Positions 37,090-50,181 of a stretch of DNA of 64,000 bases are shown here, in pieces. Made by a program: the position numbers and the translations under genes. The notes beneath the pieces were generated by a model. It searched no databases and had not been told where the DNA came from. It was given only the letters and a program-made list of their open reading frames with translations. This stretch comes from Microbacteriaceae bacterium VKM Ac-2855 (GTDB lineage Bacteria > Actinomycetota > Actinomycetes > Actinomycetales > Microbacteriaceae). The stretch lies in contig JABMLG010000002.1 of NCBI GenBank assembly GCA_013204985.1, positions 620,001 through 684,000 of the forward strand, given 5' to 3'. Position 1 is the stretch's first letter; each line of letters begins with the position of its first letter.

Positions 37090-37136
37090 TGGTGCCCCCA
37101 GTAGGATTCGAACCTACGCCCCTGCCTCCGGAGGGC
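37090..37136. other. attL: duplicated 3' half of tRNA-Arg
   Basis: 47 bp identical to 50135-50181. It includes the encoded CCA, acceptor 3' strand, T arm and the 3' half of the anticodon arm, but lacks the 5' half of the tRNA, so it is an integration remnant and not a tRNA gene. Confidence 0.93.
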
Positions 37137-37227
37137 GATTTAGGCCCGCTAGGTCGCTTGACGTCGAGGCCGGATCCGCGAGATTACGGCCATCTTGGGG
37201 CCTCCTCGATTACTCGGATTCGCTTGA

Positions 37228-37259
37228 GTTCGCGGGAAGTGTTGCCATTCTGTTGCCAC
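37228..37259. promoter_or_regulatory. Candidate integrase arm-type site near attL
   Basis: The segment holds AAGTGTTGCCATT and GTTGCCAC. Two TGTTGCCA boxes lie 11 bases apart at 37240 and 37251. A near copy lies inside the integrase end at 50044-50073 in the same orientation. The core of attL is 92 bp away. Confidence 0.6.
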
Positions 37260-37262
37260 AAG

Positions 37263-37556
37263 CTACTTCCCTGTGACGTTCCACTCGTCACCGGGCAGGC
37301 AGTAGCCAACTTCGGTGATGGACGGGAACTGCCACGCCCTGACGGGCACAGAGCAGTCCGGGTCGATCGGGTGCTCGTCTACGACATGGAAGCGTTCGTG
37401 CGCGACGGGGCGGTGCTCGTCACACGCTCGGGTCTCGCGGTGATCGGGGTCCCACGGGTTGCCGATGTATAGGTGCCAGGTCGCGGAGGCGTTGCACTGC
37501 AGCGTGGCGTCCTCGTCCGGGGCGTACTTGCAGCGCTGAACACTACTGATCGGCAT
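37263..37556 (-). CDS. Hypothetical element protein
   Basis: 97 residues, no family recognised. It has three Cys and four His residues (RCKYAPDEDATLQC, then ACDEHRPVAHERFHV), so metal binding is possible. The start ATG at 37556 is chosen because conserved-looking sequence begins there; a GTG at 37571 in the same frame is also possible, and the frame extends to 37688. It is the gene nearest to attL, transcribed toward attL. Confidence 0.6.
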   Translation of the reverse strand: MPISSVQRCKYAPDEDATLQCNASATWHLYIGNPWDPDHRETRACDEHRPVAHERFHVVDEHPIDPDCSVPVRAWQFPSITEVGYCLPGDEWNVTGK

Positions 37557-37669
37557 GAGCGGTTCCACTCGTCCATCGAACCACCCCCTGAACCCGCGCG
37601 CACCGCGATCGGCACAACGGCAGCGGACCGCGATGAGGGTGGGGGGAGGGGTGTCTTCCCGACGCACTC

Positions 37670-37698
37670 TTGTCAATGACAACAACACATGTTAGGGT
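37670..37698 (+). promoter_or_regulatory. Candidate promoter of the HicA-like gene
   Basis: TTGTCA at 37670-37675 and TAGGGT at 37693-37698 with a 17-bp spacer, an unusually good sigma-A-type match for this genome. Transcripts would begin near 37705, inside the longest open frame. Confidence 0.55.
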
Positions 37699-37924
37699 TG
37701 AGGTCACAATTCAAGAGAGGAGGATCGCCATCGATAAGCGCATCAAGACGCTCATCAAAGACCTGGAAGCTCAGGGCTGGGAATGCAAACCGACGAAGTC
37801 GGGATGGATCTGCTACCCGCCCGACATCGCCAAGCAGGGTGTAGCCATACACCGGACACCATCGGATCATCGCTGGTACGCGAACTGCATGAAGTTGCTA
37901 AGAGCCAGCGGATTCCAGGAGTGA
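37670..37924 (+). CDS. HicA-like small protein
   Basis: The part after residue 20 (DKRIKTLIKDLEAQGWECK, then GVAIHRTPSDHRWY and KLLRASGF) resembles the double-stranded-RNA-binding-like HicA fold of mRNA interferase toxins, although the usual S-H-H segment is replaced by S-G-W-I. Coordinates give the longest frame from a TTG. A promoter overlaps that start, and AGGAGG at 37718-37723 lies 6 bases before an ATC at 37730, so the real start may be non-canonical. The next gene (38022) is a probable partner. Confidence 0.6.
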   Translation: MSMTTTHVRVEVTIQERRIAIDKRIKTLIKDLEAQGWECKPTKSGWICYPPDIAKQGVAIHRTPSDHRWYANCMKLLRASGFQE

Positions 37925-37935
37925 GTGGTAGTTGA

Positions 37936-37967
37936 GGGAAGCCGAACTTTGGTCGGTGAGGCTTCCC
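37936..37967 (+). promoter_or_regulatory. Hairpin between the HicA-like and HTH genes
   Basis: GGGAAGCC/GGCTTCCC arms with a 16-base loop, extended by TTG/CAA after one mismatch. It lies in the 97-bp gap of the gene pair and could set their ratio. Confidence 0.5.
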
Positions 37968-38021
37968 CCAACGTCTCCGCCCACGGCGACCCTCCACAAA
38001 TAACAGGAGAGAAGAATTATC

Positions 38022-38507
38022 ATGCCCAGGTGGTCAGCAACCGTCAGCTTCGACACGGCTCGCCCGTTCACCGAGGATGAGGTAGACGACCTGCTCAATG
38101 CGCTCGTAGCCTACGGCGCAGCGATCGGCGTCAGCCGTTCCCTTACGAGCGCAGCAGTATCCCTCACCGTCGACTCGCTCACGCCACTGAGCGCAGTCGA
38201 CACCGCCACAACCATCGTCACCACGACCGCATCGCCGATCGTTGGTGAACTCGTCGTCACCGGCGTCGAGTCCCTGTCCGAAGCTGCACTCGACGCCGAG
38301 CTGCTGACCCCGACGTTCCCAGAGGTCGTTGGTTACGCCGAAATCGCCGAGATGGCTGGCGTGTCCCGTCAGCGGGCGCGGCAGTTCGCGGGCATAGCCG
38401 GATTCCCGGTACCTGTGATAGAAACGACGCAGGGGCCGCTCATGACCAAAGCGGCAGTCGCATCCTGGCTCGCAGCCAGGGCACCGCGAAACCCACGTAC
38501 CGCCTAA
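38022..38507 (+). CDS. HTH protein downstream of the HicA-like gene
   Basis: 161 residues. The N-terminal 90 residues (MPRWSATVSFDTARPFTED) are a beta-rich region of unknown family. The C-terminal part is a MerR/AlpA-like HTH (EIAEMAGVSRQRARQFAGI). An N-terminal fold plus DNA-binding domain downstream of a HicA-like gene is what a HicB-type antitoxin would show, but this is inference. AGGAGA lies 11 bases upstream of the ATG at 38022. Confidence 0.65.
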   Translation: MPRWSATVSFDTARPFTEDEVDDLLNALVAYGAAIGVSRSLTSAAVSLTVDSLTPLSAVDTATTIVTTTASPIVGELVVTGVESLSEAALDAELLTPTFPEVVGYAEIAEMAGVSRQRARQFAGIAGFPVPVIETTQGPLMTKAAVASWLAARAPRNPRTA

Positions 38508-38535
38508 CCTCACCCTCATCTACCACTGAGACTCC

Positions 38536-38565
38536 GAACCCCCGGGCCATGCGGCCCGGGGGTTC
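38536..38565 (+). terminator. Terminator after the HTH gene
   Basis: Perfect 13-bp arms GAACCCCCGGGCC/GGCCCGGGGGTTC with loop ATGC, followed by TCTCTCG. Confidence 0.85.
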
Positions 38566-38600
38566 TCTCGTCATCCCTGAAACTCCGCAACGACGAATAA

Positions 38601-38633
38601 CCCCGCCCGACCGCCGGTTGCGGAGGGGCGGGG
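38601..38633 (-). terminator. Hairpin at the 3' end of the tape-measure gene
   Basis: CCCCGCC/GGCGGGG with an inner CCGC/GCGG stem. On the minus strand it follows the tape-measure stop by 8 bases and is followed by TTATTCG. Confidence 0.7.
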
Positions 38634-38640
38634 CTTGTTG

Positions 38641-41487
38641 TCATCGGGGCGTGATGTTGCCTCTGCCGATACCGAGTGCTGTGAGGGTGCGCCGCATCTT
38701 CTGGTCTGCATCTCTGGTGAGCTGCGTCGGGTCGTAGCTGTAGAAGGTGCCGTTGAGGTTCACAGACGGCGCGACGGTGGTGCTCGAGCTGCTGCTATGG
38801 GTGGTGTAGTGCGCGGGCATGGGTGCGTAGTTGCGCGGGTCGGGGGCGAGGTTCGGCGCTTCCCATGGTCGGCTATAGATGGCACCGCCGTCCGCGAAAC
38901 CGCCCGCGAGGCCCTGGTACAGCGCTCGTCGGAACGCGTAGACGCCTGACTGTCCGCCCATCCTCGCCACGTCTTCCGCGTCCAGAACATGCTCACCGTT
39001 CGACAGGCGGAACAGGCCCGCCTTGTCATCACGCGGCCCGCCGGGGCCGTAGATCGCTCCGCCGTCCGCGCGTCCTGCGGAGTTGCGTGCGTCCGAGTAG
39101 GTGACGACGTTGGTGGTCGTGATATTCACGCCCACCTCTCGCGGGATGGCGTCGATCTTCGCCCGGAGCACGTCGATCGCGTTGACCGCATCGGCGGTGC
39201 GCATGATCGCGTCAACCTCGGCCTTGGACGGGATCTCGTAGACCCGATCCGCGAACTGCTGTGCAGCGTCCGCGTTTCCCGTCAGGGAGGTGATCTGGTC
39301 GATGAGGGTCTGCTTGCCGGCGTTGACGGTGGCGAGGTAGCCGTCCGCGTTGTGGTCGGCGGCGAGCTGCGCTTCGGCGGCGGCTTGTGACTGTGCGGCG
39401 AGGTCGGAGAACATCTTCGCATTCGCGGATCCGGCCTCGGTGGACGTGTCCATGGAGAACGAGTAGCCGTCGAGAGAGCCGTTGGCTTTTTCGTACGCGT
39501 CCTTCTGCTTCTCCACTTCTTCGCTGATCCCGGCGAGTGCGGCTTGGTAGTCGGCGTTCGCGCCAATCGCATCCTGGTTGACGCCGTTGGTCTTGTTGAT
39601 CTGTTCGATGAGCTTCGAGAGCTGATCCTGCAGGTTCTCGACCTCGCCGGCCTGGGCGAGGTAGGCGTCCGCTGCGTCCGTCGCGGATCCGGTGGCCAAC
39701 TCCTGCTCGTTCGCGACGCCTGAGAGCGCTTCGGCGTAGGCGGGCATCAGCTTCGTCAGTTCCTCGGTGGAGACACCCTGCTCTTTCGCCTTGCTCGCGA
39801 GCTGGTCGAACAGGGCAGCGGCCTTGTCCGCCTGCCCGCCCTGCACGAGTGCGGCGAGAGACTGCCCCATCGTGTCGAGCTGGTCCCTGCTCTGCGCGAC
39901 CTGGTCGGTGAACTGTCCGCCGAAGAACCCGTTGATGTTGGATCCGAGGCGTTCCATGCTCGAGTTCAGGTCATCCGCGGTCAGCAGGCGCAGGGCTTCG
40001 CCGTAGCTGTTCACGTCGGCACCGAGGCCCTTGAACAGTGCACCAGTGTTGTCCTTGAGCAGTGCGTTCGTGGTCGCCTCGAGTCCAGCCGCCGCCTTGT
40101 CTCCGGAGGATGCGATCTTGTCCAAGATCACTCCCGCCGTGGCGAGGGCGGCGACGGCACCGACCGCTTTGCCGAGGCCGATTGCGGCACGGGAGGCGCG
40201 CTGCACGCCCGGCGTCATTTCTCCGATCGCTGCGTTGTAGGCCGCGACCCTCGGGACCGCCGTCAGGAACGCGCCCGCCGCGAGAGCGCTAGCAGCGCCT
40301 AGAGCGCCTACAGCGAGCGCTCCGCCCTGCACGGGTCCAGGCATGCCCGAGAACGCGTTGACCGCGTCCGTAGCGGCCTGCGTGAGGAACCGGAGGGTAT
40401 CGTTCGCGGCAGACCCCGATTTGATGAGTGCCGTGTCGACGGACCCGCCGAGAGCGTCGATGTCGCCCTTCAGGTTGTCGAGTTTCATCGCCGCCTGCTC
40501 CGACGCGAACCCGGAGTCGTTGACTTTCTCGGTCCATTCCGCGACTCCCTCGGAGCCCGCCTGATACAGGGCCGTGGCCGCGACGACGGACTCGGCTCCG
40601 AAGATGGTGCCGAGGGATGCGTCGCGCGACGCGCCGTCCATCGTGCGGTACGCGTCGGACAGTTCACCCGCCGCGTTTTCCACGCCGAGGAACGCACCGG
40701 TGCTGAGGTCGTAGAGCTGGATCCCGAGGCGTTCCATTTCCTTCCGTGCCGCCTGAGACGGCGACGTGAGAGCCGAAAGCACCGCCCGGAAGGATGTGCC
40801 CGCCTCCGAGCCCACAACCCCCTGCTGAGCGAACAGCGCCATCACGCCCGTGGTCTCTTCGAGGGAAACGCCCATGCTGTTCGCGATCGGCCCGACGAAC
40901 TTCATGCCCTGCGCGAGGTCATCGACCGAGCCCATCGCCTTCCCTGCGCCCGCGGCGAGGACATCGGCGACGTGGGCCGCGTCGGAACCCTTGAGCTGGA
41001 ACTGTCCCAGCGCCGTCGCGGAGATCTCGGCAGCGCGGGCGACTCCGAGACCGCCAGCGCTGGCGAGATCCAGAGCACCGGTCAGACCACCCGACAGGAT
41101 GTCGGTGGTGGAGACACCCGCCTTCGATAGTTCGTTGATCGCGTTGGCGGCTTCGGTAGCGGAGAACGCAGTGTCGGCACCGGCCTGAATCGCCGCGCCA
41201 CGTAGTGAACCCATCTCCTTCGTGCTTGCGCTCGTGCTGGCCTGCACCTCGCTCATTGCCGCGTCGAACTCAGCGAACTTCGAGATCGCCAGCGCGACGG
41301 TCGCGGTAGCGAAACCACCGATCGCGAGGACGCTGTGACCCAACGTCTCGTAGGCCTGCTTCTGCTGTTCGATGGCAGCGGTGCCGTCCGTCGACACCTC
41401 TCGGGTCTTCTTCTTCATCTGCTCCAAGCCAGCGATGTACTGCTGCGCTTGGAAGACGGCGGTCACCTTGACTGTTCTGTCCGTCAT
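38641..41487 (-). CDS. Phage tail tape-measure protein
   Basis: 948 residues. Residues 70-400 match the TP901-type tape-measure core (FDAAMSEVQASTSASTKEMG, MGSVDDLAQGMKFVGPIANS). Two hydrophobic stretches (about 390-410 and 430-455) and long Ala-rich, coiled-coil-prone regions follow, as in siphophage tape measures. By family knowledge it would set tail length and cross the host envelope. The start is preceded by GAAAGGACC. No tail assembly chaperones or other structural genes adjoin it, and a terminator sits 28 bases before its start. Confidence 0.9.
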   Translation of the reverse strand: MTDRTVKVTAVFQAQQYIAGLEQMKKKTREVSTDGTAAIEQQKQAYETLGHSVLAIGGFATATVALAISKFAEFDAAMSEVQASTSASTKEMGSLRGAAIQAGADTAFSATEAANAINELSKAGVSTTDILSGGLTGALDLASAGGLGVARAAEISATALGQFQLKGSDAAHVADVLAAGAGKAMGSVDDLAQGMKFVGPIANSMGVSLEETTGVMALFAQQGVVGSEAGTSFRAVLSALTSPSQAARKEMERLGIQLYDLSTGAFLGVENAAGELSDAYRTMDGASRDASLGTIFGAESVVAATALYQAGSEGVAEWTEKVNDSGFASEQAAMKLDNLKGDIDALGGSVDTALIKSGSAANDTLRFLTQAATDAVNAFSGMPGPVQGGALAVGALGAASALAAGAFLTAVPRVAAYNAAIGEMTPGVQRASRAAIGLGKAVGAVAALATAGVILDKIASSGDKAAAGLEATTNALLKDNTGALFKGLGADVNSYGEALRLLTADDLNSSMERLGSNINGFFGGQFTDQVAQSRDQLDTMGQSLAALVQGGQADKAAALFDQLASKAKEQGVSTEELTKLMPAYAEALSGVANEQELATGSATDAADAYLAQAGEVENLQDQLSKLIEQINKTNGVNQDAIGANADYQAALAGISEEVEKQKDAYEKANGSLDGYSFSMDTSTEAGSANAKMFSDLAAQSQAAAEAQLAADHNADGYLATVNAGKQTLIDQITSLTGNADAAQQFADRVYEIPSKAEVDAIMRTADAVNAIDVLRAKIDAIPREVGVNITTTNVVTYSDARNSAGRADGGAIYGPGGPRDDKAGLFRLSNGEHVLDAEDVARMGGQSGVYAFRRALYQGLAGGFADGGAIYSRPWEAPNLAPDPRNYAPMPAHYTTHSSSSSTTVAPSVNLNGTFYSYDPTQLTRDADQKMRRTLTALGIGRGNITPR

Positions 41488-41514
41488 GGTCTTGGTCCTT
41501 TCGGGTTAAACGAA

Positions 41515-41543
41515 AAGCCCTGCCGGATGGCCCGGCAGGGCTT
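41515..41543 (-). terminator. Terminator between the prim-pol-like and tape-measure genes
   Basis: Perfect 11-bp arms AAGCCCTGCCG/CGGCAGGGCTT with a 7-base loop. Read leftward it ends with TTTTCG. It leaves only 27 bases before the tape-measure start. Confidence 0.9.
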
Positions 41544-41567: not shown

Positions 41568-42083
41568 TCAGCGCAATGGCTTCCCGGTGATCGTCAGGTA
41601 TCGATGTTGTGTGTAGAACTCGACGGAGATCCCGTCGATGCGTCGTCGCCAGCCCTTCTCGGCCTCGGCATAAACCCAGAGGTGCACACCGTCACCGGAC
41701 GGCGACCACTCGGCATAGAAGTGAGGTGTCGACTCGATGAGTGCCGCCGCTGATCGTTCTAGGACGCCATCTGCCGCTACGTGGTCCAGGTCGTAGCAAC
41801 CGATGCCGGTGCCGTCGAGCACAAAACCCAAGCCGACTCCGACCGTCGATGCGACCGCCGCATCGTAGGTTGACCATGTGGAGCGATCAGTTGAGCTAGC
41901 CGGCATTCCGTTCGCGGTCATCGGCACCTTGCTGCTGGTGCGACGGATCCAGTTCGGTCGCGACAAAAGCTCCACGGGCAGCATGTTGGTCTGCCTGCTC
42001 AGCGCCTTCCTACATCGCGGCGAGCATGTCTTCGTGCCGGCGCGCCTCAGCAGTAGGGAGACATGACAAACCGCGCATCGCAT
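41568..42083 (-). CDS. Zinc-ribbon primase-polymerase-like protein
   Basis: 171 residues. An N-terminal C-x2-C...C-x3-C zinc ribbon (CAVC, CSPRC) precedes a prim-pol (AEP) N-terminal-like domain: K-V-P-M-T, ASSTDRSTWSTYDAA, GCYDLDHV with the catalytic acid pair, and EWSPSGDGVHLWV. The helicase half of complete phage primases is missing, so this is a minimal or truncated primase. A TAGAAT box ends 6 bases before the ATG at 42083, suggesting its own leaderless promoter. Confidence 0.75.
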   Translation of the reverse strand: MRCAVCHVSLLLRRAGTKTCSPRCRKALSRQTNMLPVELLSRPNWIRRTSSKVPMTANGMPASSTDRSTWSTYDAAVASTVGVGLGFVLDGTGIGCYDLDHVAADGVLERSAAALIESTPHFYAEWSPSGDGVHLWVYAEAEKGWRRRIDGISVEFYTQHRYLTITGKPLR

Positions 42084-42349: not shown

Positions 42350-42835
42350 GTGCCTGACTCGATAGATCTCCGCGATGTGGAGGCCACCGTCAACGCCGCC
42401 GTCGCCTCGATGCTTCGGCATCCTGATCGAGCGTCGATGTACTGGTTCGCGCGGTACCCGAAGGAGTCGTGCACGGGTGCCAGCTTCGTTATCGGACAGG
42501 TCCTTTGCGACCGAGACCTTGGTGATTGGACGCTGACCGTTCACGCCGACACGAATAGCAACTATCACGCCTGGCTTGAAATGCAGCTAACGGACGGACG
42601 GACAGTCGTGGTGGACTCGACAGTCCACCAGTTTCCGGCACTGAGCACTACGTCCTACTTCGGCACCGAGAAGTCGCCGGCGCTTGAGCGATTCTCCGAG
42701 GGCGAGGTCTACAGCTTCAAGATGAGCAGGCCCGACTCTCACGCCGCGGGGAAGGTGCCGCAGTTTCGCGAGATGCTGGAGTGGGTCAGGAGTGACATCG
42801 AACCCCTGACCCATCCCGGCGAGGGGGCGTCCTGA
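42350..42835 (+). CDS. Hypothetical protein with a possible transglutaminase-like triad
   Basis: 161 residues. ESCTGASFVIGQ, NSNYHAWLEM and VVVDSTVHQF place Cys, His and Asp in the order and spacing of transglutaminase/NlpC-like folds. This is weak evidence, and no family is assigned. GTG start after a GGGAGGGGG tract. It is the only rightward gene in the middle of the element and ends flush against the convergent gene at 42836. Confidence 0.55.
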   Translation: MPDSIDLRDVEATVNAAVASMLRHPDRASMYWFARYPKESCTGASFVIGQVLCDRDLGDWTLTVHADTNSNYHAWLEMQLTDGRTVVVDSTVHQFPALSTTSYFGTEKSPALERFSEGEVYSFKMSRPDSHAAGKVPQFREMLEWVRSDIEPLTHPGEGAS

Positions 42836-43900
42836 TCAGTCGCGACCGGCGTTCCACGCGGCGGACCGTGCTCGGTTCTCGGCGGCGAACCCGGCGTTGG
42901 CTCGGAGTCGCTGCAGCGCCTTGGTGTCGCCCTGCATCGCCCTCGTGCTGACGGGTGGCGTGGCACTGACGGTCAGGTCCGCGTCCGTGTCGATGCCGGT
43001 CAGTCGGTAGTAATCGGCTCGGGCTTCCTGCTGTGCAATGGGGATGGCTATCGTCACCGCCGCTGTGGCTAGGCCTGCTGCCTTGGCTGCTGCTCGGTAC
43101 GTCCCGAGGTCGGGGATCCACGGGTAGGTGCCCTCGGCGATGGTGAGCAGGTGTTCCTCTCGGCTGATGCCCTTCGGCCACCACGACTCGGGGTCTTGCT
43201 CCCACGTCGGCTGCACGTCTCGTAGCCATGCGGTGTACGACTTCGATGCGGGGCTGTCGCGGTAGCTGGTGCTGGCTGAGGTGAGGCGCCTGCTGACATA
43301 GTGCGGGTGCACGTCGATGCTGTCGGCGTACAGGCAGGTGGTCAGCAGTTCGGAGCGGGTGCGGTCGGTGGCGACCTCGCGGAGGATGTCGAGCTGCACG
43401 GCGCGAATCTGGTCGTACGCGTCTACGAGGTCTGCGAGTTCACGCCAGGCGTCGGTGGACTCGGTGCCGGCGGTGATCGCCTGCGCCGCGGTACTGACGC
43501 CGGTGAGCTTCGGGGCAAGCGCGCGAACGGCGTCGATGGTGTCGGCGAGTTCGTTGCTTAGGTGAGCGAAAGCGAGATCGGAGTGCGACCCGATGTACTG
43601 GCTGCGCACTTCCGACACGGGCACTCCGGCCTTCCGGATTGCGAGGTCGCGCAGTTCGGCGGCTCGGTCGTCTACCTCAGCCTGCGCGGCGTCAGCAGCG
43701 ACGTCCGCAGGCACGGGCTCACTGTTCGCGAGGAGGTCGGCCACGCGCTCGTAGAGCGCCTGCACGGCGATCGGGTAGCGCTTGGCAGGACCGGTAGAGC
43801 CATAGGCTCTGCGGGCATTCTCTGCCGCTGTGAGCGCTTCGGTGAAGCCGGGTATCGCGGCGAACGTGCGCCCGCGAACATTGTCGGTGGTGATGGTCAC
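42836..43900 (-). CDS. Large hypothetical element protein
   Basis: 354 residues, mostly helical, no family recognised. The start is GTG at 43900 with AAGGAG 5 bases upstream. It overlaps the preceding 45-residue gene by four bases (GTGA). The sequence is rich in Ala, Arg, Asp and Trp (WEQDPESWWPKGISREEHLL) and has one hydrophobic stretch (AAGLATAAVTIAIPI). It is the last gene of the leftward train. Confidence 0.7.
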   Translation of the reverse strand: MTITTDNVRGRTFAAIPGFTEALTAAENARRAYGSTGPAKRYPIAVQALYERVADLLANSEPVPADVAADAAQAEVDDRAAELRDLAIRKAGVPVSEVRSQYIGSHSDLAFAHLSNELADTIDAVRALAPKLTGVSTAAQAITAGTESTDAWRELADLVDAYDQIRAVQLDILREVATDRTRSELLTTCLYADSIDVHPHYVSRRLTSASTSYRDSPASKSYTAWLRDVQPTWEQDPESWWPKGISREEHLLTIAEGTYPWIPDLGTYRAAAKAAGLATAAVTIAIPIAQQEARADYYRLTGIDTDADLTVSATPPVSTRAMQGDTKALQRLRANAGFAAENRARSAAWNAGRD

Positions 43901-44034
43901 TTCTTCTCCTTGGTCTTGGTCCCGAATCGGCGCTCGGCCTCGGTGCGCCCGTTCGGGCCGAAGCTCGGGGTGGTCTTGTTCTCGGTGGCGATGCGGCGGA
44001 TCTCTGCCTGCTGCTCGGGTGTGAAGTCGGTCAT
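43897..44034 (-). CDS. Small conserved element protein
   Basis: 45 residues (MTDFTPEQQAEIRRIATENK at the start, ending KTKEKK). The N-terminus is similar to that of the neighbouring 67-residue protein (MSEFTTAQRAEIAKIARTEA). Overlap GTGA with the next gene and a shared AGGAG argue that it is real despite its size. Confidence 0.65.
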   Translation of the reverse strand: MTDFTPEQQAEIRRIATENKTTPSFGPNGRTEAERRFGTKTKEKK

Positions 44035-44043: not shown

Positions 44044-44247
44044 TCAGTCGCCGGTGCCCCAACGGGCGGCGGGGGTGAACGTGCCGGGGATGTCTCCCCG
44101 GCGGCGTGCGAGTTCCTGCTCGGTGTCGTCGGCGGTGTCGTGCGGTGTGCGTCCGAGGTTGTCGAGCGGGATGCGGTTGACGCGGGCCGCTTCGGTGCGT
44201 GCGATCTTCGCGATCTCTGCGCGCTGGGCGGTGGTGAATTCAGACAT
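44044..44247 (-). CDS. Small element protein, paralogue of its neighbour
   Basis: 67 residues. The first 16 residues share the pattern M-(S/T)-(E/D)-F-T-x2-Q-x-A-E-I-x2-I-A with the downstream 45-residue protein. The rest is hydrophilic (GRTPHDTADDTEQELARRRG). Start ATG at 44247 lies within the preceding stop codon region (overlap 8 bp). Function unknown. Confidence 0.65.
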   Translation of the reverse strand: MSEFTTAQRAEIAKIARTEAARVNRIPLDNLGRTPHDTADDTEQELARRRGDIPGTFTPAARWGTGD

Positions 44248-44440
44248 GGGTCTTGCCTTCCTGGTTTCGGGTGGGTGGTGTGCCTTGCGGGTGTATCTCG
44301 ACGTAACCGGCCCCGCGAAGTGCGGTGACGACGTGCTGCGCGAGTTCGCCGAGGATGTCGCCCCGGGCAGCGCGCTCATCACGGAGCCGGGTCTCGTTCC
44401 GGCGAGCGATCGACTGCCAACGGTCACGGTCAGCTGTCAT
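44240..44440 (-). CDS. Small hypothetical element protein
   Basis: 66 residues, charged helix (DRDRWQSIARRNETRLRDER) followed by a short beta region. It overlaps the next gene by 8 bp, so the two are coupled. Start ATG at 44440. Confidence 0.6.
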   Translation of the reverse strand: MTADRDRWQSIARRNETRLRDERAARGDILGELAQHVVTALRGAGYVEIHPQGTPPTRNQEGKTHV

Positions 44441-44450: not shown

Positions 44451-44753
44451 TCAGTCGGCAGGCTCGGGGCCGTCAAGGTTGATTCCGGCAAGCTGGTCCT
44501 CAAGCGCAGTGGTCGCCTTGACTTGATCCCCGCCGCTGAGGACCAGCAGCAGACCGGCACCGTCGAACGACAAACGAGTGATGAGCTGCCACAAAGCCGG
44601 AACACCGATCCCGGTCTCGTAATCCTCGAACGCCTCAACCATGACCTGAGCGAACAGTTCGTCATCGTTACGCAGGTGCGCGAGAACCACACGGCATGCG
44701 CGGGCCTCATCGATCGGACGAGGAACCGCGGGTATCTCGTTGGGGTTGGTCAT
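44451..44753 (-). CDS. Hypothetical element protein
   Basis: 100 residues, acidic, no family recognised (RACRVVLAHLRNDDELFAQV). It overlaps the upstream gene by 4 bp. The end has a short hydrophobic segment, AGLLLVLSG. Confidence 0.65.
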   Translation of the reverse strand: MTNPNEIPAVPRPIDEARACRVVLAHLRNDDELFAQVMVEAFEDYETGIGVPALWQLITRLSFDGAGLLLVLSGGDQVKATTALEDQLAGINLDGPEPAD

Positions 44754-45346
44754 GATGCGTTCCTCTCGTCAGGGCGCATGCCCCAACTCTCGATAGCGGT
44801 CTTCGCCTTCTCCGGCATTCGTTCCCAGTCGGCAAGAGTGAACGCGGTGAGGGAACCAACTTCGACGTCTCGCCAAGCTGGTTCTTCGTCACCTACTACG
44901 TGCCTTTCCTTCCTGGCCTGTCCTTGCCTGTGCTGTCCTGGGGACACGTCCCTGGGGACGTCCCCAGGGACGTCCGCGAAGGCTGGGCTGGGTTCGGCTT
45001 CCAACCCCGCCTTCGCCGCTCGTTGTCGTGCCTTCTTCTCGCGGTCGCGGCGACGCATGTTCTCCACGACTTCGAGTTCGTGCTTGCTGGTCTGCGTCTG
45101 GGCGAAGTCGCAGATCAACCACCGACCATCGCCTGTCTCGACCCAAAGTGCGAGAGCGACGAAAGCGAGGACGGCAGAGGTCGAGAACCGGGGGATGAGC
45201 GGCAGGTCGTCTGCGACGATCACGCCGTCTGTCCGGTTGGAGACGGACCAGATGGTTGCAGTGATGTACGAGCGGAACTCTGCGTCACTGAGGCGACCTA
45301 TCCGGCGGTCGAGTAGGTAGCGTTCGGGCATTCGGGCGTCGACCAT
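44750..45346 (-). CDS. Phage-type replication-like protein
   Basis: 198 residues. The N-terminal part (YLLDRRIGRLSDAEFRSYIT, then VSNRTDGVI) resembles winged-helix regions of phage replisome organisers; the middle is a basic linker (RRRDREKKARQRAAK). The assignment is tentative, without clear motifs. It lies next to the hairpin at 45371-45402. Confidence 0.55.
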   Translation of the reverse strand: MVDARMPERYLLDRRIGRLSDAEFRSYITATIWSVSNRTDGVIVADDLPLIPRFSTSAVLAFVALALWVETGDGRWLICDFAQTQTSKHELEVVENMRRRDREKKARQRAAKAGLEAEPSPAFADVPGDVPRDVSPGQHRQGQARKERHVVGDEEPAWRDVEVGSLTAFTLADWERMPEKAKTAIESWGMRPDERNAS

Positions 45347-45409: not shown

Positions 45410-46087
45410 TTAGTCGGGGGAGCCGTGCTCGATCACCTCGCCCGTGTCGGGGTCGACAGTCGGGTCCGGCTCGGGTCTGATCGCGTCCAGAAACTCGGTC
45501 AGGATCGAGATGTGCTGGACGGTTTCAGCCCAGAGGTAGCCGAGTGCTTCCCGGTTCCGGTGAAGCCGGTCGTCCGCGATGATGCGGTCGAACCTGTTCG
45601 CGATGTTCCGGAGGTCGACCACGGCGGAGTGCGCGGTGCTCGTGATCGGTCGGCGGTTAGGCTCGCGCTTCGGCTCTGGCGCCTTCGGAGCTGGCCGGGG
45701 CCGCGACTTGCCGTCTGCGCTGTTGATCCGCGGAGAACTGTTACCCGGAGGTAACACTTGCTGGTCCTGATGGATGGTCTTGTTGCTGACCTTCGTGACG
45801 GCGGCGATCCCGCGGGTGCTCATGCCCGCGTTGGTCAGAGCAGCGACGATGGGCAACCTGTCCGCCTGCGAGGTCTTCACCGCCAAGTGCTCCGCCGCGT
45901 ACGCGTCCCATGAAGTGAACCCGAGTGCAGACCAGGCTCTTCGTTCATACGCTTCGATGACGAGGACGGTAAACTTGTCGTAGGCGTCGGTGATGCTGTC
46001 GCGCAGCAGACCGATGCGGAACGTGGCCTTTTTGGCTTCCTCGGCGGTCATCTCGATGACTGCGTCGACTACCTCGATGTCACTCAC
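45410..46087 (-). CDS. Hypothetical protein with HTH-like segment
   Basis: 225 residues. ADRLPIVAALTNAGMSTRGI and AAVTKVSNKTIHQDQQV look like a helix-turn-helix of the kind found in phage or ParB-like proteins. Flanking regions are a helical N-terminus and a Pro/Arg-rich linker. Overlaps the upstream gene by 4 bp. Confidence 0.65.
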   Translation of the reverse strand: MSDIEVVDAVIEMTAEEAKKATFRIGLLRDSITDAYDKFTVLVIEAYERRAWSALGFTSWDAYAAEHLAVKTSQADRLPIVAALTNAGMSTRGIAAVTKVSNKTIHQDQQVLPPGNSSPRINSADGKSRPRPAPKAPEPKREPNRRPITSTAHSAVVDLRNIANRFDRIIADDRLHRNREALGYLWAETVQHISILTEFLDAIRPEPDPTVDPDTGEVIEHGSPD

Positions 46088-46602
46088 GCGTCAGTCCCCT
46101 TGCTGAATAGGCCCGCCGCGTGTGCTTCGCCGAGGGTTCGGTGTCCCGATGCCCTGAGCATGTCCGCGAGTGCGAGGTACGGGCTGTCCTCGGGGGCGGG
46201 CGGCACCACGTGCAGGTGTCGCTTCGGAGGCGTCACGAGCTTGATGAACGCCGCACGGTCACCGTCATGGCGTGGGAAGTAGCGGGCCGGACCGTAGCCG
46301 GGAATGCCAAGGTCGATGTCCTCGTAGACCGGGCTGCCGTCCGTGTACGTCGTTGCCATCGCCCAGCCGAGGTCGGTGAACGTCACGCGCAGCCCGTCCC
46401 AGCGGATGCCTTCGACGCGCTCGGCGAGAGCGAGCCACAGCATCCGCCGGCACGAGTCCAGGATCTCGCTTTCGGATTCGAGATCGACACCTTCGATGTT
46501 GCCCGCGATGGCGTCCTGTACGCCCTCAATCGTCCCGGTGGTGCGCCACACCACCGACTTGAGAGCGTCCAGGTCCGTGCCGTTCACGCGGCCGCTCAAC
46601 AC
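46084..46602 (-). CDS. Hypothetical element protein
   Basis: 172 residues, no family recognised. Central motif W-D-G-L-R-V-T-F-T-D-L-G-W-A and YGPARYFPRHDGDRA. It overlaps its neighbours at both ends (7 and 4 bp). Confidence 0.65.
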   Translation of the reverse strand: MLSGRVNGTDLDALKSVVWRTTGTIEGVQDAIAGNIEGVDLESESEILDSCRRMLWLALAERVEGIRWDGLRVTFTDLGWAMATTYTDGSPVYEDIDLGIPGYGPARYFPRHDGDRAAFIKLVTPPKRHLHVVPPAPEDSPYLALADMLRASGHRTLGEAHAAGLFSKGTDA

Positions 46603-46817
46603 GTCACCTCGTCCAGCCAGGCGTCATCGGACGCAGCGGGCTTCTCGGTCGCGGCGGCGGCCTCGAGTAAGGCGGTGGCCAATCTGCGCGCCTCATCGGG
46701 TAGGAAAGCGAGTTCGAGCCCATTCGTCTCGACTCGCACCACGGGCACAGTATCGAGCATGACCGCCGGCTCGACGGTGACGTAGCCGGAGAACCGTGTG
46801 TCCACGAGGGCGCTCAC
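46596..46817 (-). CDS. Small hypothetical element protein
   Basis: 73 residues from the GTG at 46817 (SALVDTRFSGYVTVEPAVML). It overlaps the upstream gene by 4 bp. Family unknown. Confidence 0.6.
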   Translation of the reverse strand: MSALVDTRFSGYVTVEPAVMLDTVPVVRVETNGLELAFLPDEARRLATALLEAAAATEKPAASDDAWLDEVTC

Positions 46818-47347
46818 TGTACGGCCTCGGCGCTCAGCAGGCGCTCGACGGTCGCCGCGCTCGATGCGAGGTCGGCCGCGAACGTCCGGAGGCCGTCCGT
46901 GCTGGTGTCGAACCCGGTCTCGCAGGCGAACACGATGCACGGGGATCCGATCGTGACATTCCCGTAAGCGTCTCGAACATCTTCGCGCTTGACCCACACG
47001 GCGTAGTCGGCGGTCTCGGTTACGTACCTGCAGTGATCCGTGAGGCAGGTGCGGTGATCGGTGCGGAGCGTGTCTGTCTCGTGGTGATCGAGGTTGCACC
47101 AGGACGGGCACGGGGTGGTGAACGGGACATGCGGGAAGGTCATAGATGTGAGGTAGTGCCAGAGGTGCGCCGTTGAGACGTTGGACAGGTCACAGCCGCC
47201 TGCCCATCGTTCGATCACGTCGAACTCGGGAGTGCCGGGGTAGACGTGTTGGAAGGCGGGCGGAGCGGCCTGCGCGGCGGCGATGATCGCCCGGTCCCTC
47301 TCCACAATCTCGGGTGTGATGACGGTGGTCTCTGTTACCGTGGTCAT
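46814..47347 (-). CDS. DUF6907-like protein
   Basis: 177 residues. C-P-S-W-C-N-L-D-H-H-E-T-D and a later acidic/aromatic segment match the actinobacterial DUF6907 pattern (PxWCxxxH), function unknown. Start ATG at 47347 with AAGGAA 8 bases upstream; the longer frame to 47437 is not needed. Confidence 0.7.
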   Translation of the reverse strand: MTTVTETTVITPEIVERDRAIIAAAQAAPPAFQHVYPGTPEFDVIERWAGGCDLSNVSTAHLWHYLTSMTFPHVPFTTPCPSWCNLDHHETDTLRTDHRTCLTDHCRYVTETADYAVWVKREDVRDAYGNVTIGSPCIVFACETGFDTSTDGLRTFAADLASSAATVERLLSAEAVQ

Positions 47348-47433
47348 GATCTTGATTCCTTCGCTTTCGTGATGGCTTGCGGTGGGGTCGTTGCCGGAGT
47401 TTGCGTTGGCGCGCAGCTCCGGCTTTTTCGTAT

Positions 47434-47757
47434 TCACGCTGCTTCCCAGCGTGTCGCGGGTCGCTTCGCTCGGCTGAGACCCTTTTCATCTGCAGCGCGA
47501 ACGAGACCGGCGTGCAGCAGCTCGGAGGTCCGCGAGCGGATCGAGGTCTCGGTGACGTGGGGGACGTTGTCGCTGATCTCGGCTTCGCGGTACCGGTCCG
47601 CGATCTGCTCGTGAGTCAGCGGGCCGTGCGCGTGCAGGAGCAGCAAGATCGCGTTCTTCACAGGTGTGATGCGCGCCTCGGTCTGCTCAGCAGCGGCGAG
47701 CTGATCGGGACGCAGCACGTCCCATGTCGCCCGCGCCTTCTCGGTGGTGCTGGTCAT
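47434..47757 (-). CDS. Winged-helix-like element protein
   Basis: 107 residues. ILLLLHAHGPLTHEQIADRY and SIRSRTSELLHAGLVRAA resemble a winged helix for DNA binding. It may regulate the train or assist replication. It ends 87 bp before the DUF6907-like start. Confidence 0.7.
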   Translation of the reverse strand: MTSTTEKARATWDVLRPDQLAAAEQTEARITPVKNAILLLLHAHGPLTHEQIADRYREAEISDNVPHVTETSIRSRTSELLHAGLVRAADEKGLSRAKRPATRWEAA

Positions 47758-47760
47758 CGG

Positions 47761-48060
47761 TTACTCCTTTCGAACGTGAGCGCGAACGCTGCGACCGCGA
47801 CGGCTCGGGGTGAAGGTGTAGAGGTGCAGAGCGGCGGCTAGCGCCTGCCCGCTGATGCGGAACACGGTGGCTCCTGTGTGGTCCACGACGCTGAAATCGT
47901 CAGCGGCGAGGATGTGTCTGATCGCGGCTTCCCCGGTGGGGTCCGCGTACCAGAGGCGGGTGAGATCCTGGCCCGAAGCAACAAGATCAAGAGGCGAGTT
48001 CGGCGTGTCTATGCCGACACCGCCTCGGCGGTGCCCTGTCGCGCGGTCGACTCGATCCAT
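47761..48060 (-). CDS. Hypothetical element protein
   Basis: Up to 99 residues. The C-terminal part (LWYADPTGEAAIRHILAADD, then FRISGQALAAALHLY) looks ordered, while the first 30 residues overlap the excisionase gene and may not be translated. Family unknown. Confidence 0.55.
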   Translation of the reverse strand: MDRVDRATGHRRGGVGIDTPNSPLDLVASGQDLTRLWYADPTGEAAIRHILAADDFSVVDHTGATVFRISGQALAAALHLYTFTPSRRGRSVRAHVRKE

Positions 48061-48248
48061 TCGATGACCTCACTCTCGAGATACACGATGGTCCGTGGCG
48101 TCGGACGTCGGTAGCGAGGGCCTTCCCCTCGGAATCGGAGGCCCGCGAGGTTGTTCTTCGTCATGCCCGGGATCAGGTCGCAGACCTGCTCCGGCGTGAT
48201 GTACCGAACCGCGTTGTCCTGCTGGACCGCGGGGTGCGTCACCGTCAT
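48009..48248 (-). CDS. AlpA/excisionase-like HTH protein
   Basis: 79 residues. ITPEQVCDLIPGMTKNNLAG, then RYRRPTPRTIVYLESEVIEW is the MerR-type HTH of AlpA and phage excisionases. It would bend DNA for excision and/or activate the element. The ATG at 48248 has AGGAG 7 bases upstream. It is first in the leftward train and divergent from the HTH-integrase pair. Confidence 0.82.
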   Translation of the reverse strand: MTVTHPAVQQDNAVRYITPEQVCDLIPGMTKNNLAGLRFRGEGPRYRRPTPRTIVYLESEVIEWIESTARQGTAEAVSA

Positions 48249-48270
48249 TTGTCTCTCCTTGTCCACGTTT

Positions 48271-48294
48271 TGCGAGACGTGGTCACGTCCCGCA
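48271..48294. promoter_or_regulatory. 24-bp operator-like palindrome upstream of the excisionase gene
   Basis: TGCGAGACGTG/CACGTCCCGCA have 11-bp arms with one mismatch and a GT centre. Further ACGTGG boxes are at 48263-48268 (inverted) and 48331-48336 (within GTGGCCAC). A repressor, possibly the product of the divergent gene, could bind these. Confidence 0.6.
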
Positions 48295-48387
48295 ATCACG
48301 ACCCTAGGAGATGTGTCCAAGAAATTCAAGACGTGGCCACAAATTAGTGTCGCAACTTTGAAATCCGTGGACGCTAAGGTGGTGCAC

Positions 48388-48912
48388 ATGACTGAACGAC
48401 CACCACGGGAACCAGGCGCATGGGTGCGAGCGAAGTATGGCGACGGCGAGATCGACGTGTTACCAGACCTCGTAGTTCCCGCCAGATGGACGATGATCGG
48501 ACTCCTGATAGCCGAGGCAGACGGAGTCGAAGTCGATCTCGAGCAGGAGTGGGACGCTGATCGCAAGCAGCTTTCTACGCGCGTGCTCACGATCCATGCC
48601 GCCCGCGGCCTGACAGCCACGCAGCTCCATGGGCTGGCGCGAATCTCAACGATCACGGCCGGAAACCACTTCGTGCAGGTTCGAGCCGAGGACGGCACCC
48701 TGAGTCCGTTCGGCGTGAACCCGGACCACCTCGCGAGGATGAAGGCAGACGGCCCAACCGACGAGACTCTGCTATGGGTGGCTCGCCTGTACGCCGCGTC
48801 GCGCTCATATGGGCAAGCGCCCAACAAGTCCGTTGTCGGGTATTTCGATATCAATCAACGGACGGCCACGCGATGGATCGCGAAGGCTCGCAAGGCAGGC
48901 CTGCTCGACTAA
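48388..48912 (+). CDS. HTH protein coupled to the integrase (candidate master regulator)
   Basis: 174 residues. The C-terminal part (ETLLWVARLYAASRSYGQAP, then INQRTATRWIAKARKAGLL) is a helix-turn-helix. The N-terminal part (PARWTMIGLLIAEADGVEVD) is a fold I do not know. It overlaps the integrase start by one base (TAATG), so both are made together. The position is that of the repressor gene in many islands, but function is inferred. Confidence 0.75.
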   Translation: MTERPPREPGAWVRAKYGDGEIDVLPDLVVPARWTMIGLLIAEADGVEVDLEQEWDADRKQLSTRVLTIHAARGLTATQLHGLARISTITAGNHFVQVRAEDGTLSPFGVNPDHLARMKADGPTDETLLWVARLYAASRSYGQAPNKSVVGYFDINQRTATRWIAKARKAGLLD

Positions 48913-50129
48913 TGGGCAGCGTTCACTCCTACTACGTGAAGGGTCCGCTGACCGCGAAGGGGAGCCCGCGCGAGTCTGACAAGCGTTATCGCGTCATCTA
49001 CCGCAAACCCGACCACAAGCAAGGGCAGAAGCGCGGGTTCACGACGAAGAAAGCCGCGGAGACGTACCTCGCCGCGGTCGAGGTCTCGAAGGCCACCGGC
49101 GTATACATGGACCCGGCGCGGTCGCGGGTAACGCTGGGGGACTGGCTCGACGCGTGGATGTCGGATCGCACGGACTGGCGGGCAACGTCGCGGGAACGGG
49201 CGGAGGGGATCGTAAAGACACACATCCGTCCGAAGCTCGGCGGCTACCCGTTGGGCGAGCTGACCCACGGAACCGTGCAGGCGTGGGCCAGCGGCTTGCA
49301 GAAGACTCAGGGCGCGGCATCCGTCCGCAAGATCGTGAACGTGCTCTCGGGAGCGTTGAGCGCCGCCGTGCGCGACGGGCGAATCCCGGCCAATCCGGCG
49401 ACGGGATTGAAGCTGCCGAAGGTCTCGACGGCTGCGAAGGCGTACTTGACACATGACGAGGTCGCCGCGCTCGCGACCGCGGTTGACGCGATCGGGAAGG
49501 GGCAGGAGAACGGGAAGCGCAACGGCTACGGACTCCTGGTCCGTGTCCTCGCGTACTGCGGCCTGCGCTGGGGAGAACTATCCGGGCTCAGGGTGCGTGA
49601 TGTCGACACAGTGCGGGGGCGGCTCGAGATCCAGCACACGGTCGTAGAGGTCGGCGGGTCGCAGGTAGAGGGCGAGCCGAAAGACTACGAGCACCGCTCC
49701 GTGCCCGTGCCGGCGACGATCGCTGCTGAGCTGCGGGACCACATTTCAGGCAAGGGGCCAGACGACCCAGTGTTCTCGGGAAGTCGCGGTCATGGGTGGC
49801 TTCGCGGTCGGGTGTTCCGCCGCGGATGGCTTGACGCTGCGGCGGCCTCGATCGGGCGCGAAGGCCTCACGCCTCACGAGCTTCGTCATACCGCCGCGAG
49901 CCTTGCGATCAGCGCGGGTGCGTCGGTCAAGTCGGTTCAGCGCATGCTCGGCCACGCCTCTGCGGCGGTCACGCTCGACGTGTACGCCGACCTCTTCGAT
50001 GACGACCTAGATGCCGTTTCGGCGGCTCTGGATTTGGCTATCCGTTCGCGAAGTGTTGCCATTTCGTTGCCACGGGCCGGTAATGACGAAGGCCCGAACT
50101 TCGCTACTTCGGCGAAATCTCGGGCCTAA
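48912..50129 (+). CDS. int: Tyrosine-type integrase
   Basis: 405 residues. An N-terminal AP2-like arm-binding domain (GFTTKKAAETYLAAVEVSK) and a SAM-like core-binding domain (110-185) precede the catalytic domain with Arg in CGLRWGELSG, H-E-L-R-H in LTPHELRHTAAS, GHASAAVTLDVYA with the nucleophile Tyr. It acts on the tRNA-Arg site 6 bp downstream of its stop. Its last codons contain a hairpin and one copy of the arm-type site. Confidence 0.95.
   Translation: MGSVHSYYVKGPLTAKGSPRESDKRYRVIYRKPDHKQGQKRGFTTKKAAETYLAAVEVSKATGVYMDPARSRVTLGDWLDAWMSDRTDWRATSRERAEGIVKTHIRPKLGGYPLGELTHGTVQAWASGLQKTQGAASVRKIVNVLSGALSAAVRDGRIPANPATGLKLPKVSTAAKAYLTHDEVAALATAVDAIGKGQENGKRNGYGLLVRVLAYCGLRWGELSGLRVRDVDTVRGRLEIQHTVVEVGGSQVEGEPKDYEHRSVPVPATIAAELRDHISGKGPDDPVFSGSRGHGWLRGRVFRRGWLDAAAASIGREGLTPHELRHTAASLAISAGASVKSVQRMLGHASAAVTLDVYADLFDDDLDAVSAALDLAIRSRSVAISLPRAGNDEGPNFATSAKSRA
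50044..50073. promoter_or_regulatory. Candidate integrase arm-type site near attR
   Basis: Shares GTTCGCG, AAGTGTTGCCATT and GTTGCCAC with 37228-37259 in the same orientation; 62 bp from the attR core. It overlaps the integrase coding end. Confidence 0.6.
50093..50126. terminator. Hairpin in the integrase end, before the tRNA
   Basis: GGCCCGA/TCGGGCC outer arms with inner TTCGC/GCGAA. It lies within the last codons of the integrase and directly beyond the tRNA 3' end, so it can serve as a terminator for leftward tRNA transcription and for rightward int. Confidence 0.6.
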
Positions 50130-50134
50130 ATCGG

Positions 50135-50181
50135 TGGTGCCCCCAGTAGGATTCGAACCTACGCCCCTGCCTCCGGAGGGC
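50135..50181. other. attR core within tRNA-Arg
   Basis: 47 bp identical to 37090-37136, extending from the CCA to the anticodon loop. Identity stops within the anticodon stem. Confidence 0.93.

Follow-up and report, generated by a model that had tools for sequence, protein, structure and literature searches.

Several described phage satellites provide the closest comparisons for the locus reported here. The PLEs of Vibrio cholerae: these carry a tail tape-measure protein (TMP) that replaces that of the helper, goes into virions and gives rise to chimeric tails, reported in 2026 as the first case of its kind (PMC12987554). As far as the available text of that report goes, no other satellite had previously been reported with a TMP, putative tmp genes are noted in PLE-like elements and cf-PICIs, and what a satellite gains by modulating tail assembly is left by its authors to future work; the string 'actino' does not occur in that text. 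The PICIs of the SaPI type: these possess a small protein, CpmB, which has a C-terminal motif (RIIK) in common with the scaffold of the helper and redirects capsid assembly (PMC5644958). The candidate Mycobacterium PICIs: like the element described below, these are actinobacterial and integrated, with tyrosine integrases at tRNAs and one serine integrase among the examples shown (PMC10654092). The Streptomyces satellites MulchRoom and MiniFlayer: these are likewise actinobacterial (PMC10690885).

Within the 64-kb window (the whole stretch of DNA analyzed) lies a real, att-bounded 13-kb element at a tRNA-Arg gene, with an integrase, an AlpA-like gene and a replication train (Table 1). We interpret it, with a probability of about 0.72, as an integrated phage satellite from an actinobacterial family whose members would reprogram the virion of a helper siphophage in two of its parts. 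Its family is probably an undescribed one, in which a helical core protein is joined by a short protein where a scaffold tail is present once, twice or three times, the TMPs have been captured independently from different helpers, and head and tail would both be rebuilt.

The 47-bp direct repeats, which an earlier note on this DNA had assigned to a tRNA-Arg gene, are identical, lie 13,045 bp apart and include a part of an intact tRNA-Arg (CCG). The word TGTTGCCA is found in three copies only in the 64-kb window, both strands considered, and these are candidate integrase arm sites. When the flanks were compared with 14 other genomes of the same genus, the whole joined flank was matched in 0/14, and a full-length prophage with the same flanks, which the earlier note had named as evidence for a mere deletion, was seen in none of the 14. 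In G003 and G011 about 50 bp of the left flank, the att site and the tRNA side run contiguously without the element, and they do likewise in G012 over a shorter stretch.

Table 1. Features of the element, in window coordinates.
Position	Strand	Feature	Evidence or match
37090..37136	.	attL, 47-bp direct repeat, part of tRNA-Arg gene	repeat search
37233..37259	.	27-bp repeat with two TGTTGCCA words (37240, 37251); candidate integrase arm sites	
37263..37568	-	small gene without family	
37670..37924	+	84-aa gene, possible cargo	phrog_2089 2.1e-7 (unknown)
38022..38507	+	161-aa HTH/excisionase-like, left end, possible cargo	phrog_2620 1.8e-5
38641..41487	-	tail tape-measure protein, 948 aa, intact, largest gene	Pfam PhageMin_Tail 1.4e-46; phrog_1533 1.6e-81
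41568..42083	-	minimal prim-pol	phrog_8643 2.4e-52
42350..42835	+	possible cargo gene on the opposite strand, 161 aa	Transglut_core3 no better than 0.17; 0.007 to a TerL_N piece of one prophage
42836..43900	-	core protein, 354 aa, predicted helical, family hallmark	
43897..44034	-	45-aa putative scaffold-tail mimic, ends GRTEAERRFGTKTKEKK	GAGGAG upstream of ATG; stop overlaps core gene start
44044..44247	-	67-aa gene	homologue in satellite G039, 42% over 33 aa
44240..44440	-	66-aa gene	homologue in satellite G001, 73% identity over 55 aa
44451..44753	-	100-aa gene without family	Pfam/PHROGs scan
44750..45346	-	replication-initiation-like protein	phrog_2447 6.1e-11
45410..46087	-	HTH gene	phrog_29861 3.5e-9; homologue in satellite G001 (38%)
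46084..46602	-	172-aa gene	homologue in G033 prophage region, 43% over 120 aa
46596..46817	-	73-aa gene	homologue in satellite G001
46814..47437	-	DUF6907-like	1.1e-4, below Pfam cut-off
47434..47757	-	winged-helix regulator-like	phrog_1123 5.9e-7, phrog_2440 5.6e-5
47761..48060	-	small gene without family	
48009..48248	-	AlpA/excisionase-like HTH, 79 aa, divergent from int	phrog_597 4.9e-5
48493..48912	+	regulator-like gene, 1-bp overlap with int, start uncertain	
48912..50129	+	tyrosine integrase, 405 aa	Pfam Phage_integrase 1.5e-18; phrog_1 4.2e-71
50047..50073	.	partner of the 27-bp repeat, 89%, one TGTTGCCA word (50054)	
50135..50181	.	attR, 47-bp direct repeat within intact tRNA-Arg	repeat search
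50135..50209	-	tRNA-Arg (CCG), intact, integration site	ARAGORN

In its general organization the element resembles the SaPI-type PICIs (with CpmB and Rcm), which also have an integrase, a regulator set against an AlpA/xis side and replication genes (PMC5644958, PMC12409344): it is att-bounded, at 13 kb near the size of about 15 kb typical of such islands, and has its own replication genes, namely the replication-initiation-like gene and the prim-pol. The divergent excisionase-like gene, the train of overlapping small genes and the minimal prim-pol-like gene had all been correctly read from the sequence in the earlier note. The AlpA-like protein shares 56% identity, across 61 aa, with its counterpart AlpA from a full prophage in G244, and the train runs leftward with overlaps of 52, 4, 4, 7, 4, 4, 8 and 4 bp and intact frames. 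The proposed coupling of the integrase to an HTH gene holds as far as the overlap is concerned, but the upstream gene lacks a good family match (best Pfam DUF6214 0.0088); its weak relatives adjoin integrases in G244, G436 and G1086. A prim-pol of this type was found in seven other genomes: one of these, G033, mapped gene by gene, is a full prophage, and in the remaining ones BLAST of the element proteins gave no TMP or core homologue.

The largest gene codes for a TMP, hence the element does include a structural gene. The earlier note had listed terminase, portal, capsid and lysis genes as absent, and none is convincingly present among the 20 ORFs compared with Pfam and PHROGs, but this structural gene had been overlooked. 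The note's further ground, that most genes have no recognizable family, was incomplete, as it is the TMP and scaffold-tail genes, both missed by the note, that carry a satellite signature. A TMP lies downstream of the core gene in 8/14 core loci and is lacking in 4/14; three further elements, all from Microbacterium, lack the core gene but do have a TMP. The best PHROG families of the satellite TMPs differ: phrog_1533/4704 in the window, G039, G436 and L147; phrog_971/4197/58 in G702, for its first 518 aa only; and phrog_934, phrog_4197 and phrog_2337 in others. On the TMP tree, nine satellite TMPs need seven Fitch changes, as against a mean of 8.7 and a minimum of six for shuffled labels. Different TMPs have been captured repeatedly by satellites. 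Those of the phrog_1533 class are of phage-like size (925-1179 aa vs a median of 935), the TMP takes up 17-33% of a 10-16 kb genome in the nine elements measured, and its relatives sit in siphophage-type loci.

Thirteen genome loci, from six families or more, carry the core gene, with differing integrases and sites; hence, the element is not a lone deletion. Profile searches gave 4/398 genomes at the family level, 5/396 at the order level (four true, two of them new) and 7/394 at the class level (six new), the three samples overlapping. The order-level match in G677 is a RecA and was dropped. L147 also belongs to the core family by HMM (best of 547 decoys 0.12); L146, L148, L149 and L150, considered as further members, have other proteins near the place of the core, which the HMM does not place in the family. 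In tblastn searches (E<=0.01) the window and G039 core proteins matched 0/50,697 phage records, and the window core protein 0/72,556 plasmids. Back-translated core peptides, 114 stretches in all, found no relative among viral contigs, a scan that was not sensitive because it missed the core homologue of the viral contig L174, which surfaced through the motif scan described below. Two structure models of the core protein have pLDDT values of 51.5 and 65.8, and Foldseek returned nothing for it from PDB or BFVD at E<=0.001; the sole PDB match by sequence is a designed helical bundle (E 0.13).

Immediately upstream of the core gene, the 45-aa protein ends in GRTEAERRFGTK followed by five residues, an ending that nearly matches the C-terminal tail of head scaffolding proteins from actinophages. 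When viral contigs were scanned for AEAERRFG, the hits were scaffold C-termini in 12/30 contigs, and in the nine of these 12 that were tested PHROG assigned head scaffolding (9/9); the motif is identical with C-termini of proteins predicted to be scaffolds. A scaffold was the best match, in a comparison set of 2100 proteins with 66 scaffold-like ones, for 8/11 small proteins picked once the motif was already known, as against 2/60 control small proteins. Of these eight best matches, five fall at the scaffold C-terminus (window, G039, G001, L148, L150), while the L146 protein is itself a whole scaffold, G702 matches within the inner part and L144 along a stretch at the N-terminus. Of 200 shuffles, none (0/200) reached the score of the window protein; for the small proteins of G039, G244, L144, L147 and G436 the score was not significant against shuffles. 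By tblastn in phage records, the 45-aa protein gave two Listeria records only (E=6), and three other small proteins searched likewise gave no scaffold. The window may have, in this putative mimic of a scaffold tail, a counterpart to the capsid-size redirection trait of SaPI-type PICIs. As in those PICIs, a small protein bears the C-terminal motif of a helper scaffold; unlike in SaPIs, the small proteins of the actinobacterial family often have two to three motif copies (by eye) and stand beside the core protein, and SaPIs are not known, from the available text of the PLE report, to carry a TMP (PMC12987554). Such a motif may serve as a sequence handle for pairing satellites with their helpers, here toward phages with scaffolds of the phrog_4708 type.

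Gene plans of the same kind recur in relatives from other genera and families, integrated at different sites; the earlier note had named the lack of any other genome with this gene set as counting against a satellite. Repeats of 19-52 bp, 10.1-16.3 kb apart, bound the relatives in G001, G244, G436, L147, L148, L150, G1079, L146 and G1086, at tRNA-Arg, tRNA-Lys, tRNA-Leu, tRNA-Val, tmRNA and other sites. Judged by eye, G039 and G702 encode serine integrases and interrupt dprA-like and cpaF-like genes; the repeat search found no flanking repeat in these two. TerS, a further likeness to the SaPI-type PICIs (PMC5644958, PMC12409344), occurs without TerL in G039, G244, G436, L150 and G830. L174 combines the core and the tail motif with what is clearly a TerL (among phage records, 54.6% to that of Streptomyces phage Kromp; no PDB match), so the core and tail-motif pair is not confined to TerL-less elements.

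In the window itself, the packaging-related matches are weak: TerS phrog_57 (0.093) for the HTH part of 38022-38507, portal phrog_5929 (0.45) at 44047-44427, and, in a BLAST comparison with one prophage, an N-terminal TerL piece (0.007) for 42350-42835. Neither a TerS nor a cos or pac site was identified there, and none of the following was recognized: the TerS without TerL or other packaging-redirection protein of PICIs; the tail assembly chaperone of PLEs; the capsid, portal, connectors and TerL of cf-PICIs. A helper prophage, which the earlier note had suggested looking for, was not found in the own genome (G000) with TMP and G244-type TerL probes: it has no second TMP of the same type and no TerL of the G244 type, probes which other helper types would escape. 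A phrog_2 TerL probe also found none in G000; as it missed a known TerL as well, it lacked the sensitivity needed, and the TerL of the G244 prophage was used instead.

By its published description (PMC12987554), the PLE is an integrated satellite with a TMP of its own. PLEs differ in having a tail assembly chaperone, in PLE11 a baseplate hub protein, and contractile tails; the window element has siphophage-type TMP relatives, and its proposed capsid factor is the scaffold-tail mimic together with the core protein. The candidate Mycobacterium PICIs are defined by integration genes together with a major capsid gene (PMC10654092); in the core family no capsid gene is recognized. MulchRoom and MiniFlayer differ in encoding terminases, portal, capsid and scaffold, and in lacking key replication genes; the available text on them never uses the term 'tape measure' (PMC10690885).

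We infer the mobilization of the element, small capsids, chimeric tails and every other functional step as follows. The satellite would reside in the tRNA-Arg gene under its regulator until infection by, or induction of, a helper frees the integrase and AlpA-like gene for excision at the att sites; expression of the replication train would follow. Bearing a C-terminal tail taken to be the capsid-binding part of the helper scaffolding protein, the 45-aa protein could together with the helical core protein redirect capsid assembly, in the manner of CpmB of the SaPIs and its RIIK motif. The satellite DNA would be packaged by the helper TerL, with some relatives supplying their own TerS; the 948-aa TMP would take the place of that of the helper, resulting in chimeric tails as in the Vibrio PLEs; and helper lysis would free the particles.

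The TMP and the scaffold-tail protein might instead be dominant-negative decoys of a defense island, blocking the assembly of invading phages. Both pieces are isolated from other virion genes, tail-assembly interference has been described as a defense (PMC11364771), and the PLE11 Rta represents such interference inside a satellite (PMC12987554). Nevertheless, we consider this unlikely: the TMPs are kept at full length, 925-1179 aa, in genomes of 10-16 kb, which a decoy need not be; the TerS without TerL of the relatives points to packaging; and the TMP of the PLE satellite does enter virions (PMC12987554).

It is quite improbable that the element is a defective prophage, that is, a formerly complete siphophage minus the genes between prim-pol and TMP and those past the TMP. 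The viral loci L018, L043 and L092 do have a prim-pol homologue about 9-10 kb upstream of the TMP (in L043 with TerS, TerL, portal and capsid annotated in between), such that one internal deletion could join both. However, the reading frames of TMP and core are undamaged, as are the two att sites; none of the 50,697 phage records contains the core gene; and ten other elements, with varied integrases, sites and TMPs, likewise have a TMP but no recognized gene for TerL, portal, capsid or tail tube (G1072 and G1119 among these being visible only from near a contig start); because the plan recurs, we rate this alternative low. A capsid-forming satellite or new small phage, with head genes too diverged for recognition, could account for the many small genes without family and for the TerL gene of L174, which has a core homologue. 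This is very improbable: no called window gene besides the TMP and integrase reaches 400 aa, and none is convincingly a TerL, portal or capsid gene; a comparison of 12 elements with the head and tail genes of two prophages returned only TMP, TerS, the scaffold tail and two marginal matches, the window gene at 42350 (0.007) and a 46-aa gene in G830 (0.002), a thirteenth element compared; and a scaffold-tail peptide is most readily understood as acting on the capsid of a helper.

If the satellite interpretation is correct, this would be a second, actinobacterial family bearing TMPs, suggesting that TMP replacement is a general strategy of satellites, and the several captures from different phages would be natural replicates for asking why. 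In G005 the TMP is spread over two reading frames.

The 354-aa core protein proved to be the hallmark of a family of elements. Profile searches recovered it in 4 of 398 genomes at the family level, 5 of 396 at the order level and 7 of 394 at the class level, with overlap between the samples. The order-level matches in G000 (the genome of the window, actinobacterial judging by its relatives), G039, G436 and G702 are real; the match in G677 was dropped, the protein being RecA. With L147, found in the scan for tape-measure proteins (TMPs), and the viral contig L174, the core loci number 14: the window, genomes G039, G001, G244, G436, G702, G830, G1086, G1079, G1002, G1072 and G1119, L147 and L174. 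The twelve genomes, G000 included, represent six families (f1, f7, f19, f22, f38, f58); G1086 is presumably 'Mycobacterium-like', given adjoining PE/PPE-like genes identified by eye. A TMP follows the core in 8 of the 14 loci (the window, G039, G436, G702, L147, G1079, G1072, G1119), of which G1072 and G1119 are visible only from near a contig start, and is missing from four (G001, G244, G830, G1086); G1002 and L174, at contig ends, were left unscored.

The genome scan with the TMP used peptide patterns drawn from two satellite TMPs, which may bias it towards satellites, and returned eight loci: four att-bounded elements with no recognised TerL, portal, capsid or tail-tube genes (L146, L147, L148, L150), two short contigs resembling them (L144, L149) and two full prophages (L145, L151). 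Three elements have a TMP and no core. The TMP takes up 17-33% of the element genome in the nine elements measured. When 13 elements were compared with two prophages for genes of head and tail, the matches were the TMP, TerS, the scaffold tail and two marginal cases: the window gene between core and prim-pol (0.007) and a 46-aa G830 gene (0.002).

The earlier note's inventory of the window element, comprising the 47-bp repeat, an intact tRNA-Arg(CCG), the integrase, the AlpA-like gene, the overlapping train and the minimal prim-pol, is upheld, with gene calls from a home-made finder, but the element's largest gene had gone unrecognised as a TMP. The closest phage records to this TMP are from Arthrobacter globiformis phages (36% over 91%, best of 989 matching). 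No tail-tube, chaperone or baseplate gene lies beside it; a tail-tube gene is directly upstream of the TMP in 7 of 9 annotated viral loci, that is, those where the gene finder called the TMP. The repeats are 13,045 bp apart. The element has a GC content of 64.6%; the 10 kb on either side have 66.7% and 68.4%. The word TGTTGCCA occurs three times in the 64-kb window, always just inside the two element ends, and these are plausible integrase arm sites. Among 14 other genomes of the genus, none has both whole flanks covered by one match. G003 and G011 give a single match (query 398 or 397 to 1016, 70-72%), and G012 one over query 398-557 (96%) with the right-flank gene ~2.4 kb away; in all three the att core links ~50 bp of left flank to the tRNA side without interruption, which is the site lacking this element.

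Coordinates of features in the window and in related loci
Locus	Coordinates	Feature	Remarks
Window	37670-38507	Two rightward left-end genes, resembling a cargo pair	84 aa, phrog_2089, by eye reminiscent of a HicA-like toxin fold; 161 aa, HTH
Window	38641-41487	TMP, 948 aa	PhageMin_Tail 1.4e-46; phrog_1533 1.6e-81
Window	42350-42835	Rightward 161-aa gene within leftward operon, between core and prim-pol	Weak matches only: Transglut_core3 0.17; TerL N-terminal piece of one prophage 0.007
Window	42836-43900 (-)	Core, 354 aa	
Window	43897-44034 (-)	Scaffold-tail protein, 45 aa	Overlaps core gene start
L174	3323-7078	Core, tail-motif protein, HNH-like gene, small gene, true TerL	TerL 54.6% to Streptomyces phage Kromp
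L125 (G001)	16184-18644	577-aa and accompanying 239-aa proteins	
L126 (G001)	~6.4 kb	19-bp att	End of glutamine synthetase gene
L036 (G039)	12566-13485	Serine integrase in dprA-like gene	Both named by eye
L140 (G702)	8863-9716	Serine integrase in cpaF/tadA-type ATPase-like gene	Both named by eye
L146 (Microbacterium sp. UFMG61)	18011-18532	Element end at tRNA cluster	
L168 (G1079)	1642-2228	Element end at tRNA cluster	

A short gene adjoins the core gene. Against 2100 predicted proteins from viral and prophage-bearing loci, 66 of them scaffold-like, a scaffold is the top match for 8 of 11 such small proteins, selected after the motif had been noticed, versus 2 of 60 other small satellite proteins. 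The matched part is the scaffold C-terminus in five (the window, G039, G001, L148, L150) and an inner part in G702; the L146 protein is a whole scaffold (phrog_233, 2.9e-12), and the N-terminal match of L144 is probably chance. None of 200 shuffles matches the scores of the window, L148, L150, G702 and L146, and one reaches that of G001; with the same 200 shuffles G039, G244, L144, L147 and G436 are not significant. By PHROG, 9 of 10 tested top-matching phage proteins are head scaffolding proteins, L085 (0.0098) and L107 (0.0011) weakly so. For the 45-aa window protein, the alignment with the scaffold of a Cryobacterium prophage (L151) covers the C-terminal residues 165-205 of 205 (E 0.001 in the 2100-protein set). 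By eye, two or three motif copies are present in the small proteins of G039, G001, G244, L147, G1086 and G1002. PMC5644958 offers the precedent for such mimicry: the RIIK C-terminus of SaPI CpmB binds the capsid protein, as the 80alpha scaffold does.

Thirty contigs came from an IMG/VR scan for AEAERRFG-coding DNA; in 20 of them the motif lies within 25 aa of a C-terminus. Twelve of these 20 are scaffolds, ending 2-8 residues further on: all nine tested against PHROG are head scaffolding (best match mostly phrog_4708), and L189, L192 and L198 were so called on the strength of their tail or their neighbours. By eye, 8 of the 12 scaffold genes are followed by a 125-145 aa gene and a capsid-like one of 343-348 aa. 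Of the remaining eight, five encode one unrelated phage protein, L182 and L185 appear unrelated, and in L174 the motif is borne by an 89-aa protein whose gene comes immediately behind a core-family gene (HMM 2.3e-14). L174 continues with an HNH-like gene and a true TerL, which counts against the satellite reading of core plus tail motif; it is therefore a larger element or a phage, perhaps a capsid-forming cousin of the core family or a full phage. Among eight phage records with AEAERRFG-type scaffolds, three carry a TMP that matches the window TMP over most of its length (29-35%), one has a 66-residue TMP piece and four, some being fragments, have none. Prim-pol homologues are present in the contigs L180 and L184.

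As to packaging, a TerS (phrog_1496) is found in the elements of G039 (3.3e-10), G244 (2.1e-14), G436 (6.6e-18), L150 (1.6e-18) and G830 (2.9e-16), within which no TerL was recognised. The phrog_226 gene in the TerS region of L147 and G1002 may also be a TerS, since the gene before TerL in Streptomyces phage Dubu carries the same label, 'minor tail protein'. No TerS was recognised in the window element, nor a G244-type TerL in G000. The G244 genome holds a helper-type phage and a core-family satellite together: at the end of its contig C2 (L136/L137) lies a prophage that has genes for head and tail, a TerS resembling those of the satellites and an AlpA 56% identical to that of the window.

On a tree with 74 other TMPs, assumed to be of phages from loci annotated only in part, the nine satellite TMPs of the phrog_1533 class are dispersed, requiring 7 Fitch changes (label shuffling: mean 8.7, minimum 6); examples of pairs are the window with L044 (0.997), L144 with L052 (1.0) and L146 with L089 (1.0). 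For G702 (first 518 aa scanned), G1079, G1072 and G1119, the best match of the TMP is to other PHROG families. This scatter and these differing families show that TMPs were acquired several times. Satellite TMPs of the phrog_1533 class are 925-1179 aa long, compared with a median of 935 (range 840-1569); such lengths do not suggest tail shortening as the purpose. No TMP of the phrog_1533 class occurs anywhere in the genome of G001, a same-genus relative; the protein in TMP position there has a weak tail match (phrog_15881, 9.6e-4) and a GDSL-lipase match below cut-off (9.1e-4), and with its 239-aa companion may form a tail-fibre or receptor-side module in place of a TMP.

We infer all functional steps of the satellite model from element anatomy and from work on PLE and SaPI. 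The TMP step rests on the PLE findings of PMC12987554: virions contained the satellite's TMP instead of the helper's, and tmp deletion reduced transduction by ~99.9% in PLE11, 96% in PLE1 and 99% in PLE4. In the accessible portion of the open-licence literature, no paper was found to describe actinobacterial satellites with a TMP.

Integration sites vary among the relatives, two of which carry serine integrases. The L150 element, at about position 13 kb of that locus, lies near glutamine synthetase-like genes, and it and G001 may use related non-tRNA sites. The UFMG61 and G1079 elements, whose hosts probably belong to different families, both end at a tRNA-Val/Cys/Gly/Val cluster in the same order.
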